Assembly: GCA_013329045.1 (NCBI GenBank)
Contig: DUKZ01000003.1
Coordinates: 1-48,760 of the forward strand
Length of the DNA stretch: 48,760 bases
Reading direction: 5' to 3'
DNA from: Candidatus Woesearchaeota archaeon
GTDB taxonomy: Archaea; Nanobdellota; Nanobdellia; Woesearchaeales; UBA9989
Shown: positions 44,396 through 48,155 of the stretch, piece by piece
Position numbering within the stretch: position 1 is the first letter of the stretch
How the letters are laid out: each line of letters starts with the position of its first letter
Program-made: the position numbers and the translations under genes
Notes under the pieces: model-generated
Told to the model about the DNA's origin: nothing
What the model saw: the letters and a program-made list of their open reading frames with translations, nothing else
The model's database searches: none

Positions 44396-44827
44396 CTATA
44401 TCTGGTCTTGGGGTGATAAAAATAGTCGCACAACTTCTCCTGTTTTCAACACCTTCACTTTATTCTGCCTATCAAAATCCCTGTCATCTGACCATATGAT
44501 TGATTCTGGAATGCTCAGTTGAGCTGCAATGAATACAACATCGTCAGGGTCGATGTGAGCATAGGCGCTTTTTGCCTCCAACAAGTTTTTCAATATCTGT
44601 TCGTCAGGAATAAGTGTCACATACTTTAAAAGAACATCTAAGAGTTGATTATACTCACCCTCATCCATACCTGATTTCTCAAGAACAAGCTCCTTATATC
44701 TCTTCACCTCATGAAAAGACATTTCTGGATAATAAAAGCTCCATCCTGATTTGATAATGATCTTTCTTGTTGTCGAATCTCTTATCAAGGCAGAAAGAAG
44801 GATATTTGTGTCGATAACAAACTTCAT
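44396..44827 (-). CDS. vapC: PIN-domain RNase toxin (VapC-like)
   Basis: A 143-residue protein. FVIDTNILLSAL (about 3-14) opens the PIN fold with the first acidic residue, HEVKRY has the next Glu (about 39), and DPDDVVFIAAQL plus WSDDRDFD (about 95-118) supply the other Asp ligands of the Mg2+ site. VapC toxins cleave tRNA or rRNA. Its ATG overlaps the TGA of the antitoxin gene. The family is broad, so some PIN proteins of this type act in RNA turnover instead. Confidence 0.85.
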   Translation of the reverse strand: MKFVIDTNILLSALIRDSTTRKIIIKSGWSFYYPEMSFHEVKRYKELVLEKSGMDEGEYNQLLDVLLKYVTLIPDEQILKNLLEAKSAYAHIDPDDVVFIAAQLSIPESIIWSDDRDFDRQNKVKVLKTGEVVRLFLSPQDQI

Positions 44828-45048
44828 TTTAACCCAAGCTTCTTTGCTACTTCACCATCAATATTTTTGGCCAGGAGCTCGACATCTCTCTTTGTTAACT
44901 TGCTTTTAGCGCTTAATCGATCCAACATGTCCAGATGATCAACTTTTTCAGAGATTGTTTTTCTTATTACCTCGCTCCATCGAATCTCTGAATGTTTTCT
45001 CATTTTCGCATGCAACTCTTCGGGTATTGCTAATGTTACGTTCACCAT
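44824..45048 (-). CDS. vapB: VapB-like antitoxin
   Basis: A 74-residue protein. MVNVTLAIPEELHAKMRKH followed by SEVIRKTISEKV has the strand-helix-helix pattern of ribbon-helix-helix repressors; the C-terminal part (DVELLAKNIDGEVAKKLGLK) would wrap the toxin. An AGGAGG ribosome site lies 4 nt before the ATG. A palindrome ATGTG-ATTA-CACAT sits upstream beside the TATA, the probable autoregulatory operator. Confidence 0.82.
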   Translation of the reverse strand: MVNVTLAIPEELHAKMRKHSEIRWSEVIRKTISEKVDHLDMLDRLSAKSKLTKRDVELLAKNIDGEVAKKLGLK

Positions 45049-45068
45049 ATGGCCTCCTATGTGTGTTA

Positions 45069-45090
45069 ATGTGATTACACATATTTAACC
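45069..45090 (-). promoter_or_regulatory. vapBC promoter with palindromic operator
   Basis: ATGTG-ATTA-CACAT (45069-45082) directly adjoins the minus-strand TATA element GTTAAATATG. Position and symmetry fit autorepression by the VapB dimer. Confidence 0.55.
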
Positions 45091-45207
45091 TTTTCGGTTA
45101 TTTGTTTTTCTCTCCAAGCAGTCTATATTTGAGAATGTCGGAAAAAGTATTGCCTTGCTGCAGGGGAGACGAAAAAATTTCTCCGGGATTTATGTATATT
45201 TAAAAAA

Positions 45208-45263
45208 TACCGGGAATCCCGGTAAAATAGGAATGTTTATAAACAAATAAGTAATTCCCGGTA
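45208..45263 (+). promoter_or_regulatory. Palindromic operator and promoter of the ATPase-DUF4325 pair
   Basis: TACCGGGAATCCCGGTA (45208-45224) is a perfect 17-bp palindrome ending 12 bp before the TATA box TTTATAAA (45236-45243). A half site TCCCGGTA recurs at 45256-45263, just before the ATG at 45266, and a weaker CCGGGA lies at 45183-45188. Occupancy of both sites would bracket the promoter. Confidence 0.65.
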
Positions 45264-45265
45264 AC

Positions 45266-46225
45266 ATGAGGATACACCTGCCAAACAGCGCTTTTCTAGG
45301 GAATCTAGACCCATTCCTACGCAGTTTTGATAGTTCAAATACCAAGAAATTAGAAATAACTGCCAATAAGAAATGGATATCTGTCCATCCAATTGTCTTG
45401 TCCATGGTTGCAGCCCTTGGTCTTAAAATTGATTCATCACATATCAAATGTGAGGATATTGAAGCAACATCAAAGCACTACCTTGAGAGAATGGGGTTGT
45501 TTAAGTTCCTCGGTATCGCTTCAGGCATAAAGATCAGAGAACATGAACCAGCGGGACGCTTTATCCCACTCACCCAGATAAAAAGTTCTGATGAGCTCTC
45601 AAATTTTATCACTGAGATGATACCCTTGCTCCATCTTCAGCCAAAGCAAGCAGAGCCTATCAGGTACGTTGTCAGTGAGCTGGTAAGAAACGTATTAGAA
45701 CATTCACATTCAGAGCATGGTGCAATCTTATCTACCCAGTATTACAAGAAAAGCAATACCATCAGGATAGGCATCGCAGATACAGGCATTGGCATTAAGC
45801 AATCAATAAATGTGTCACATCATGCACTGACTGATTTGGAGGCAATCAGGCTTGCATTAACTCCCGGGATCACGGGAACAACCAGAAAAGAGGGCGGCAC
45901 TGAATTTAATGCAGGAGCAGGATTATTTTTCATCAAATCAATCGCCAATGTTAACCGCGATTTTTTCATCATCTATAGCGGAAATTCGATGTATAAGCTA
46001 CTGAAAAGCAAACCTGGCCATATACGACTCCATGCTGACCCGTTCATGGATAGACACTCAAACGAGGAGGATTTACCTTACTGGCAAGGGACGCTTGTTG
46101 GCATAGACATCTCCCTGAGCGCGACAGAGGAATTCTCATTGTTACTTGACCTTATCAGGGACATCTACATTAAAACAGTCAAAGAAAGGAAAAAAGCAAG
46201 GTTCAGGAGGCCTCGGTTCATATGA
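45266..46225 (+). CDS. GHKL-type ATPase, anti-sigma-kinase-like
   Basis: A 319-residue soluble protein. The C-terminal half is a histidine-kinase-like ATPase: N box SELVRNVLEHS (about 139-149), G1 box IADTGIGI (about 170-177) and G2 box NAGAGLFFIKS (about 214-224). There is no His-containing dimerisation domain and no transmembrane segment. The N-terminal ~125 residues are unassigned. The ATP fold without phosphoacceptor resembles SpoIIAB/RsbW kinases. The next gene overlaps (ATGA) and encodes a STAS-like protein, as in a partner-switching pair. Probably leaderless. Confidence 0.75.
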   Translation: MRIHLPNSAFLGNLDPFLRSFDSSNTKKLEITANKKWISVHPIVLSMVAALGLKIDSSHIKCEDIEATSKHYLERMGLFKFLGIASGIKIREHEPAGRFIPLTQIKSSDELSNFITEMIPLLHLQPKQAEPIRYVVSELVRNVLEHSHSEHGAILSTQYYKKSNTIRIGIADTGIGIKQSINVSHHALTDLEAIRLALTPGITGTTRKEGGTEFNAGAGLFFIKSIANVNRDFFIIYSGNSMYKLLKSKPGHIRLHADPFMDRHSNEEDLPYWQGTLVGIDISLSATEEFSLLLDLIRDIYIKTVKERKKARFRRPRFI

Positions 46226-46512
46226 AAAAGATCAACCTGCTCAAGAAAGTTGGAAGCTTTGCCGAGAACAAGGATAAAGCAAGGGATATCAGGCTTCATG
46301 AGATTATCCCGGCACTTGAAAAAAACGAAGAGGTTATCTTAGATTTTAAACAGGTGGAATCTGCAACCCAGTCATTTATCCACGCATTAATCAGCGACCT
46401 CATCAGGAAATATGGCATTGAGATACTAGACATGATAAGCTTCAAAAACTGCAATGAAACGATAAAAAAGATCATCACAATTGTTGTGGATTATATGCAG
46501 GAAACGGATTGA
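46222..46512 (+). CDS. STAS-like DUF4325 protein
   Basis: A 96-residue protein. EVILDFKQVESATQSFIHALISDLI (about 36-60) is split here as the DUF4325 core: strand VILDF, then SATQSF with the Ser/Thr that aligns with phosphorylation sites of anti-anti-sigma (SpoIIAA-like) proteins, then a helix. I did not run a profile search. Coupled by ATGA to the ATPase gene, it is probably its binding partner or substrate. Target and signal are unknown. Confidence 0.75.
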   Translation: MKKINLLKKVGSFAENKDKARDIRLHEIIPALEKNEEVILDFKQVESATQSFIHALISDLIRKYGIEILDMISFKNCNETIKKIITIVVDYMQETD

Positions 46513-46604: not shown

Positions 46605-48155
46605 CTATGTATTATACTTCCCCAGCCCCAATTGGCCAATCCTCTTTCCTTTCGGCACGACATCAACCTTTTCCCCGACCTGCTCTTTCAGAGAGAGGGC
46701 AATATTCTTCCCGACAAGCTGGGAGAGCCTCATGAGGTCTGCTTTCTTGATATCAGCGACGTTCCTCAAATTGTTGTTATACAGGATACGCGCCCTGACT
46801 CTCCCGATGTTCCTGAACCTGACCAAGGAAACGAGCTCCTCCTTGATTCCATGCTTGAGCCTTACCCTGAGCTTCATGAGATCCTTCATGCACTCACGAT
46901 ATTCCAAGAGCCTGCAAAGCTCTTGTAAGGAGAAGAGAAGCCATTCTGCATTATCCCGCTTTACCCGAATCTCCCCCGGCCGGATGCCATAGTCCTCCAT
47001 GAGATTCTCATCGCTGGATTCATCCATCCAGGAATCGAGGAACAATGCTGTCTTGAACGCATTCATAAAGATCTCATATTCCGGATCATAGATGCTGGGC
47101 TCCGGCATTAAAAGATATGATTCGTATTCTGCAACCTTTTCCTGGATAGTATCGTATTCCTTCACTTTGACCCTCAATAAGGGCTCCATTTCGACAGACG
47201 AAGAGACTGCATGCAGATAGCCGAACAAATTGGCAGGCTTATTGTTTGTCCTCTTTACCGCCTCGATGAGGCTGTGGGCCGTCAGCGGGTCTAAGTAGAG
47301 CTCCGATACCCGCTTTCCGATCTGGGTGGGGCGGATATTCCCTGAGACAAGCACGTCAGCAGATTGGAAATCACCTCCTGTGCCCATCGTGATAAATTCC
47401 CATTCCTCAAGCTGGCGGAGGAGGCGGACAATCTTTTCCTGGATCTCCTCTATATCCTTGAACTGAGATGCATAAAAAGTCTTGCTGAAGAATGCCATGA
47501 TCTGGTCCATGTCCTTGACAAACCTGCTCGCAATCAGGCTGAGAAGGTAGAATCTCAATGTTGGTTCGACGGCAAGCTTTGAATGGATGGGTTCTGGCTC
47601 GCCGAAGATGTAACGCTTGATTATTTCTTCCTGCTCTGGCTCTGTCGAGGCAATGGCAATGCATTCGCCTTTATCGTCATGCTCAGGCCTTCCAGCCCTT
47701 CCTGCCTGCTGAAGGTATTCGAGAACTGGAATCCATTCCATACCACGCCTCCCGAATCTTCTCAAGTCCCGAATGACAGCACGATACGCTGGGAGGGAAA
47801 CGCCAAGAGCCAGTGTTGGGGTGCAGCAGATGATCTTTACTGCACCGCTGCGAAATTCTTTCTCGATTAGTTCCCGCTGCTTTTGGACGAGGCCTGCATG
47901 ATGGAATGCTATTCCTTTGCCGATGCAATACGCCAGCCTCGTGCATTGCTTTGTTGGCTGCGGGAGGGCATTTTTTGCCTGCTCGCTGATCTCAAGGCAT
48001 CTTGGCCCGGATTTCTTGATCTTCTTTGCGATGTCTTCTGCCTGCTTTTCAGCAGAACTTTTCGTGCCCACAAACACGATTGCCTGCTTGCCGAGCGATA
48101 TAGTGTGGAGCGCGATGTCAATGACGGGATTATCGCCAGTACTGGGAATGTCCAT
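46605..48155 (-). CDS. Hel308/Ski2-like helicase, C-terminal half only
   Basis: A 516-residue protein starting at RecA-like domain 2. Motif IV region QAIVFVGTKSS (about 24-34), FHHAGL (about 84), CTPTLALGVSLPA (motif V, about 110-122) and QQAGRAGRP (motif VI, about 149-157) are intact. Winged-helix, ratchet and C-terminal helix-hairpin-helix domains follow (RFRNIGRVRARILY, about 452). The Walker A and DEAH motifs of domain 1 are absent, and nothing like them lies in the next 500 bp. A proper start and upstream A/T-rich sequence suggest a split gene, with the first half elsewhere, over a simple truncation. Confidence 0.85.
   Translation of the reverse strand: MDIPSTGDNPVIDIALHTISLGKQAIVFVGTKSSAEKQAEDIAKKIKKSGPRCLEISEQAKNALPQPTKQCTRLAYCIGKGIAFHHAGLVQKQRELIEKEFRSGAVKIICCTPTLALGVSLPAYRAVIRDLRRFGRRGMEWIPVLEYLQQAGRAGRPEHDDKGECIAIASTEPEQEEIIKRYIFGEPEPIHSKLAVEPTLRFYLLSLIASRFVKDMDQIMAFFSKTFYASQFKDIEEIQEKIVRLLRQLEEWEFITMGTGGDFQSADVLVSGNIRPTQIGKRVSELYLDPLTAHSLIEAVKRTNNKPANLFGYLHAVSSSVEMEPLLRVKVKEYDTIQEKVAEYESYLLMPEPSIYDPEYEIFMNAFKTALFLDSWMDESSDENLMEDYGIRPGEIRVKRDNAEWLLFSLQELCRLLEYRECMKDLMKLRVRLKHGIKEELVSLVRFRNIGRVRARILYNNNLRNVADIKKADLMRLSQLVGKNIALSLKEQVGEKVDVVPKGKRIGQLGLGKYNT

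Follow-up and report, generated by a model that had tools for sequence, protein, structure and literature searches.

The window analysed here, the whole stretch of 48,760 nucleotides, comes from an archaeal genome of 1.74 Mb, in which it is contig 48. Two adjacent genes on its forward strand are the subject of this analysis: K (45266-46225), encoding a 319-residue protein that combines a STAS-like domain with a GHKL kinase-type ATPase domain, and S (46222-46512), encoding a 96-residue, STAS-only protein of the DUF4325 family. The stop codon of K overlaps the start codon of S in the tetranucleotide ATGA, as described in the original prediction made from the DNA. The same prediction held for the nature of the two products, a GHKL ATPase devoid of a histidine phosphoacceptor and a small STAS-like partner. 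Pfam recovered HATPase_c_2 in K (E = 2.6e-6, residues 111-227) and no histidine-phosphotransfer (HisKA) domain; S belongs to DUF4325 (PF14213; E = 4.3e-15, 55.6 bits against a gathering threshold of 23) and adopts a STAS topology in its AF2 model (pLDDT 95.7).

The AF2 model of K (pLDDT 82) comprises a STAS-like N-terminus (residues about 1-105), a GHKL domain (about 108-283, from the model, Pfam and Foldseek) and a basic C-terminal helix and tail (289-319), these last 31 residues carrying a charge of +5.8 at pH 7. The GHKL domain displays an N-box (E138/N142/H146), a G1 box (DxGxG, residues 172-176) and a G2 box (GxG, 217-219). E138, N142, H146, both glycine motifs and Trp37 in the STAS-like domain are invariant in all 32 non-redundant K sequences. 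We take N142 to correspond to the active-site Asn that was mutated in the bacterial kinase CapK (PMC13373217). The Trp37 column holds mostly Trp or Phe in other STAS-GHKL kinases, which is consistent, at the level of alignment, with Trp37 being equivalent to the aromatic residues CapK W68 and VapK F54, proposed to contact ssDNA (PMC13373217). Among solved structures, the K model matched SpoIIAB (1tid_A, TM(target) 0.68; 1til_E, 0.64; Foldseek), and a K profile searched against the PDB gave no match at E ≤ 0.1.

Foldseek placed the model of S closest to STAS domains of the PDB (RsbS, SpoIIAA), with weak E-values, and the top PDB match of the S sequence was Escherichia VapS (9z7o), also weak (E = 0.077 alone, 0.015 as a profile). 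Family members are 94-99 residues long, and S itself ends at residue 96 with no C-terminal extension beyond the STAS domain. It is acidic (pI 6.1; family median 5.4), K basic. A Pfam scan at E ≤ 1 detected no DNA-binding domain, helix-turn-helix (HTH) included, in either K or S, in agreement with the original prediction; as a positive control, the scan did pick up a MarR-type HTH in an S relative from a plasmid. Profile searches likewise detected no toxin family in either protein.

The promoter of the pair is framed by inverted-repeat elements, as had been foreseen. A perfect 17-bp palindrome, TACCGGGAATCCCGGTA (45208-45224), composed of TACCGGGA, a central A and TCCCGGTA, lies directly upstream of an archaeal TATA box (TTTATAAA, 45236-45243, forward strand) and is the putative main operator. 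A half-site, ATTCCCGGTA (45254-45263), lies between the TATA box and the ATG, so that the TATA box is flanked on both sides, and a further half-site (CCGGGA, 45183-45188) was found upstream, at a distance of 27 bp from the corresponding arm of the palindrome. The TATA box stands 30 bp before the start codon, which suggests a leaderless mRNA. By chance, 0.54 sites with up to three mismatches would be expected in the window, and the observed one has none. In the host genome, which is about 90% complete, the operator was found once with at most two mismatches, at the K promoter, and a search for paired half-sites of this kind returned the same promoter only; in a WOR-1 genome it gave one extra match. 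A further operator, or an effector, could lie in the part of the host genome that is missing.

The pair forms a stand-alone unit of about 1.3 kb that we identified in more than 30 loci. A search of the genome collection yielded 21 close relatives (57-80% identity), in every one of which K is directly followed by S, with the ATGA overlap kept in nearly all; further copies emerged when relatives and two phyla were searched. Carriers, most of them metagenome-assembled genomes, include DPANN and other archaea, WOR-1, Elusimicrobia, Patescibacteria and one deltaproteobacterium. The distribution is patchy (6 of 99 relatives; 13 of 279 genomes in the phylum over the DUF4325 cut-off). The original prediction had pointed to gene neighbourhoods as the place to look for a third component. 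Apart from K and S, however, no protein family occurred in more than three of the 21 loci and none recurred in the more than 30, and the hypothesis of a third gene was dropped. The neighbours are varied and often housekeeping; the next gene may encode FtsK, TBP, a phosphoglycerate mutase, an RnfC-like protein or a type I restriction subunit.

What does accompany the pair is its operator. Using the consensus ACCGGGAWTCCCGGT (that is, TACCGGGA-W-TCCCGGTA), we found a site with at most two mismatches no more than 100 bp upstream of K in 31 of 32 non-redundant loci, against 0.01% of shuffled upstream regions; the palindrome is therefore not a chance occurrence. In archaeal loci the distance from its centre to the ATG is mostly 49-52 bp, and it lies just ahead of the TATA box; in most archaeal homologues a TATA-like element precedes the ATG by 29-31 bp, and a half-site often adjoins the start codon on its upstream side, as at ATTCCCGGTA. 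An upstream half-site or a second full site about 25-29 bp away is present in many homologues. Bacterial loci often carry the operator twice, at a spacing of 28-29 bp, and in four of the nine it occupies the -35/-10 spacer of a perfect TTGACA-N18-TATAAT promoter. The site is also confined to the pair: across 25 module-bearing genomes, sites with zero or one mismatch lie at the module among the matches listed, and, among these same matches, two-mismatch sites elsewhere occur at about the level of a reversed-pattern control in most genomes, with some excess in a few. Upstream of K at one locus (L202) the operator is a variant, TACCGGCATTGCCGGTA, in which both arms are changed symmetrically, suggesting dimeric recognition with a shifted specificity. 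Exact operator sequences were also met in 110 viral-contig stretches; we treated these as chance because an alignment search found no K relatives in viral contigs.

From the absence of a DNA-binding domain in K and S, the original prediction had deduced that an outside regulator acts on this promoter. That deduction is not borne out by the comparison across relatives. The same operator travels with the same pair through archaea and several bacterial phyla, and there is no second good site in the host genome, nor in other carriers among the matches listed. Binding of the palindrome by an outside host regulator is thus unlikely, and we give that reading hardly any probability, even if the lack of any recognised DNA-binding domain in the two proteins speaks for it. 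As the operator moves between domains of life together with the genes and has no other evident target, the best explanation for its conservation is that the pair itself supplies what binds it, and the pair most probably represses itself. Two observations count against this autoregulation, namely that neither K nor S has a recognisable DNA-binding domain and that S is acidic and lacks a winged HTH (wHTH) of the kind found in the bacterial repressor CapS.

Several features indicate that genes and operator have moved as one unit. Similarity at the DNA level extends from the operator to near the stop codon of S, and two Thermoplasmata-type contigs share a 1738-bp block, 98% identical, that contains K and S in different surroundings. 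A dispersed repeat of about 170 bp (L020 2402-2570 and 4280-4296; L022 5429-5598 and 15922-16043) flanks the transferred block in a Thermoplasmata contig, recurs elsewhere, and may have helped the block to move. The bacterial copies are real; one sits beside FtsK in a 1.03-Mb WOR-1 contig. A tree with all bacterial copies as one clade was not rejected (AU p = 0.21), so that the number of inter-domain transfers is given as at least one. Two further copies were also noted. In the WOR-1 phylum, an S copy with one in-frame TAA stop (L203, G379:C35:11649-11933) is possibly part of a decaying pair. In genome G197, a second, divergent pair (L187 5763-6858, reverse strand) exists beside the standard one; its K matches at E = 1.7e-13, its S has SRSF in place of TQSF, and no operator match was found there.

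Mobility of this kind invites comparison with toxin-antitoxin systems. Type II toxin-antitoxin complexes autorepress through an operator. In an addiction module of this sort, K or its kinase activity would be toxic, S would be the antitoxin, and a K-S complex would autorepress through the palindrome. Two small overlapping genes with their own palindromic operator over the core promoter, a mobile two-gene operon, patchy occurrence, varied and often housekeeping neighbours, and a 98% identical 1.7-kb block in two contexts all fit such a module. Neither protein matches a toxin family, however, no toxin of this fold is known, and the characterised GHKL/STAS kinases of the family regulate other proteins (PMC13373217). 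We regard this reading as unlikely, but deserving of some weight.

The closest characterised relatives were found among kinase-STAS pairs. A single directly relevant publication was found (PMC13373217; EMBO J, June 2026), and its work on these systems covers bacteria only. It describes CapK/CapS, an ssDNA-activated kinase that phosphorylates a conserved serine and so releases its STAS-wHTH repressor, and VapKSC, made of the kinase VapK, the STAS antitoxin VapS and the PIN toxin VapC; in the cases studied, the kinase/STAS pair controls either a promoter or VapC (PMC13373217). K aligned with VapK/CapK-type kinases over 270 columns, STAS part included (hhalign 100%, E = 4e-38), and S aligned with STAS partners of the VapS/CapS type (hhalign 92%, E = 5.5e-7). 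The kinase comparison set includes the kinase from a K-S-PIN operon of a Deinococcus plasmid and a Janibacter plasmid K beside a DUF4325-MarR protein. Other plasmid relatives are an Alicyclobacillus K-S pair and a Nostoc protein that is a natural K-S fusion (GHKL 146-250, DUF4325 327-388). Both proteins also matched consecutive parts of the PADLOC DrmA model PDLC02567 (1750 positions), K at 42-250 (E = 1.2e-15) and S at 326-390 (E = 2.1e-5); membership in DISARM was rejected, no DrmA helicase being present, and some proteins under that model may have a K-S-like N-terminus.

By profile similarity, then, the pair is related to the CapKS/VapKSC group, yet it is neither CapKS nor VapKSC. It shares with CapK/CapS a kinase and a STAS partner, the order K-S and palindromic sites in the pair's own region, but CapK begins with an HTH and CapS ends in a wHTH that binds DNA, neither of which is present here, and the half-site of CapS is TTAA whereas that of the present pair is TACCGGGA. 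CapKS, moreover, adjoins an immune operon, which follows in 348 of 443 published cases (PMC13373217); none adjoins K-S in the window, and none recurs in the relatives. With VapKSC the pair shares a STAS-GHKL kinase directly followed by a small DUF4325/STAS protein, the profile match of both proteins and the aromatic residue at the proposed ssDNA contact. It differs from VapKSC in that no PIN/VapC gene belongs to the operon in the window or recurs with the pair in relatives, and in that S lacks the C-terminal extension used by VapS to inhibit VapC.

The possible toxin partner nearest to hand is a VapBC pair divergent from K-S (44396-45048, reverse strand), to which the original prediction had drawn attention. 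The VapBC genes proved real, the toxin matching PIN_2 at E = 4.7e-24 and the antitoxin matching VapB at E = 2.1e-7, below that model's curated cut-off; a role for them did not find support. No PIN gene recurs beside the pair, VapBC was rejected as a partner of K-S, and the neighbour is incidental. These genes have a short inverted repeat of their own (TATGTGT/ACACATA, 45058-45083). On the other side of the pair, an ORF at 46605-48155 (reverse strand) encodes part of Hel308 (profile positions 222-692), apparently split after the first RecA-like domain, with the remainder in a separate 249-residue ORF on another contig (G000:C30:69368-69994, profile positions 11-216). This is reminiscent of Nanoarchaeum, in which split genes occur.

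A related reading places the effector elsewhere in the genome, with K-S as a CapKS-like regulator or a VapKS-like antitoxin acting, for example, on an unlinked PIN toxin or on a transcription factor bound by S. The published pairs control a promoter or VapC (PMC13373217), a complete VapBC adjoins the pair here, and one relative (L192) has a PIN gene 140 bp downstream, all of which would suit an effector of this kind. It is nonetheless distinctly improbable given that no neighbour recurs in more than 30 loci, that the host genome holds no second operator, that S, at 96 residues, has no inhibitory extension of the VapS type, and that the VapC of the window is paired with its own VapB.

The resemblance to SpoIIAB/SpoIIAA switches, around which the original prediction was built, stands at the level of fold, K matching SpoIIAB structures and S being a STAS protein; the nearest relatives, however, are CapKS and VapKSC. 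As in SpoIIAB/SpoIIAA and RsbW/RsbV, a GHKL kinase is combined with a STAS substrate fold, but K has an additional N-terminal STAS-like domain, its archaeal host has no sigma factor, and its score against the SpoIIAB equivalog TIGR01925 was 22.2 bits where the cut-off is 135. In a partner switch, K would sequester TFB or a sigma factor and S would release it, for which the similarity in fold and the lack of a phosphoacceptor histidine domain can be adduced. The hosts, however, have unrelated general transcription machinery, with archaeal TATA promoters in some and bacterial sigma-70 promoters in others, and the closer sequence relatives work without sigma factors; we therefore consider a partner switch very unlikely. 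The absence of sigma factors in archaea is likewise no paradox, since neither CapKS nor VapKSC needs one.

If K phosphorylates S, the target residue would differ from that of VapS. The N-terminus of helix 2 in S reads T49-Q50-S51-F52, and in an ungapped S-VapS alignment, where Ser48 was placed through an 18-residue tag offset (134-residue chain against the 116-residue protein), the column of VapS Ser48 is occupied by Gln50 in every copy of S read, Thr49 and Ser51 on either side being equally invariant. TQSF occurred in each of the 30 S sequences that were read by motif. The original prediction had staked its switch on a conserved Ser/Thr at the expected site, and the outcome is mixed: the site itself holds Gln, and its two flanks are conserved hydroxyl residues. 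Phosphorylation of S by K must accordingly use a neighbouring Thr or Ser, or else does not occur. Ser51 is the better candidate, because Ser at this column is also found in the Alicyclobacillus, Janibacter, Nostoc and G197/G129 proteins.

Taking these results together, we favour, with rather more confidence than doubt, the reading of K-S as an autoregulated kinase-STAS switch of the DNA-damage type, a horizontally mobile member of the CapK/CapS-VapK/VapS superfamily reduced to two genes and an operator. In the resting cell, S or a K-S complex would sit on the palindrome and half-sites and block transcription, with the basic C-terminus of K as the likelier DNA contact. The block would be achieved in archaea by flanking TBP/TFB at the TATA box and in bacteria by covering the -35/-10 spacer. 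By analogy with CapK, the stimulus for K would be ssDNA arising from damage or infection, bound between the STAS and GHKL domains next to Trp37. Stimulated K would then transfer phosphate to Ser51 or Thr49, where helix 2 of S begins, upon which the repressor would fall apart and the operon be induced. Weighing against this preferred reading, a unit regulating only itself has no evident benefit, and no effector gene is linked to it. More tentatively, and with slightly less than even confidence, we propose that the STAS/GHKL kinase complex itself reads TACCGGGA-W-TCCCGGTA, and that the cassette works in Archaea as well as in Bacteria since nothing but the placement of the operator has been re-fitted to TATA or sigma-70 promoters.

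The CapKS and VapKSC switches have been reported from bacteria, each with a DNA-binding domain or a toxin, and the pair described here has neither. The occurrence of this minimal pair with the same operator in DPANN and several bacterial phyla suggests that the core pair is a portable signalling cassette. With it, one can ask directly whether DNA is recognised by a STAS/GHKL complex in a way not yet described, the operator being defined well enough for a simple gel shift, and the conservation of one operator within two promoter grammars amounts to an unusual natural experiment on gene regulation across domains.
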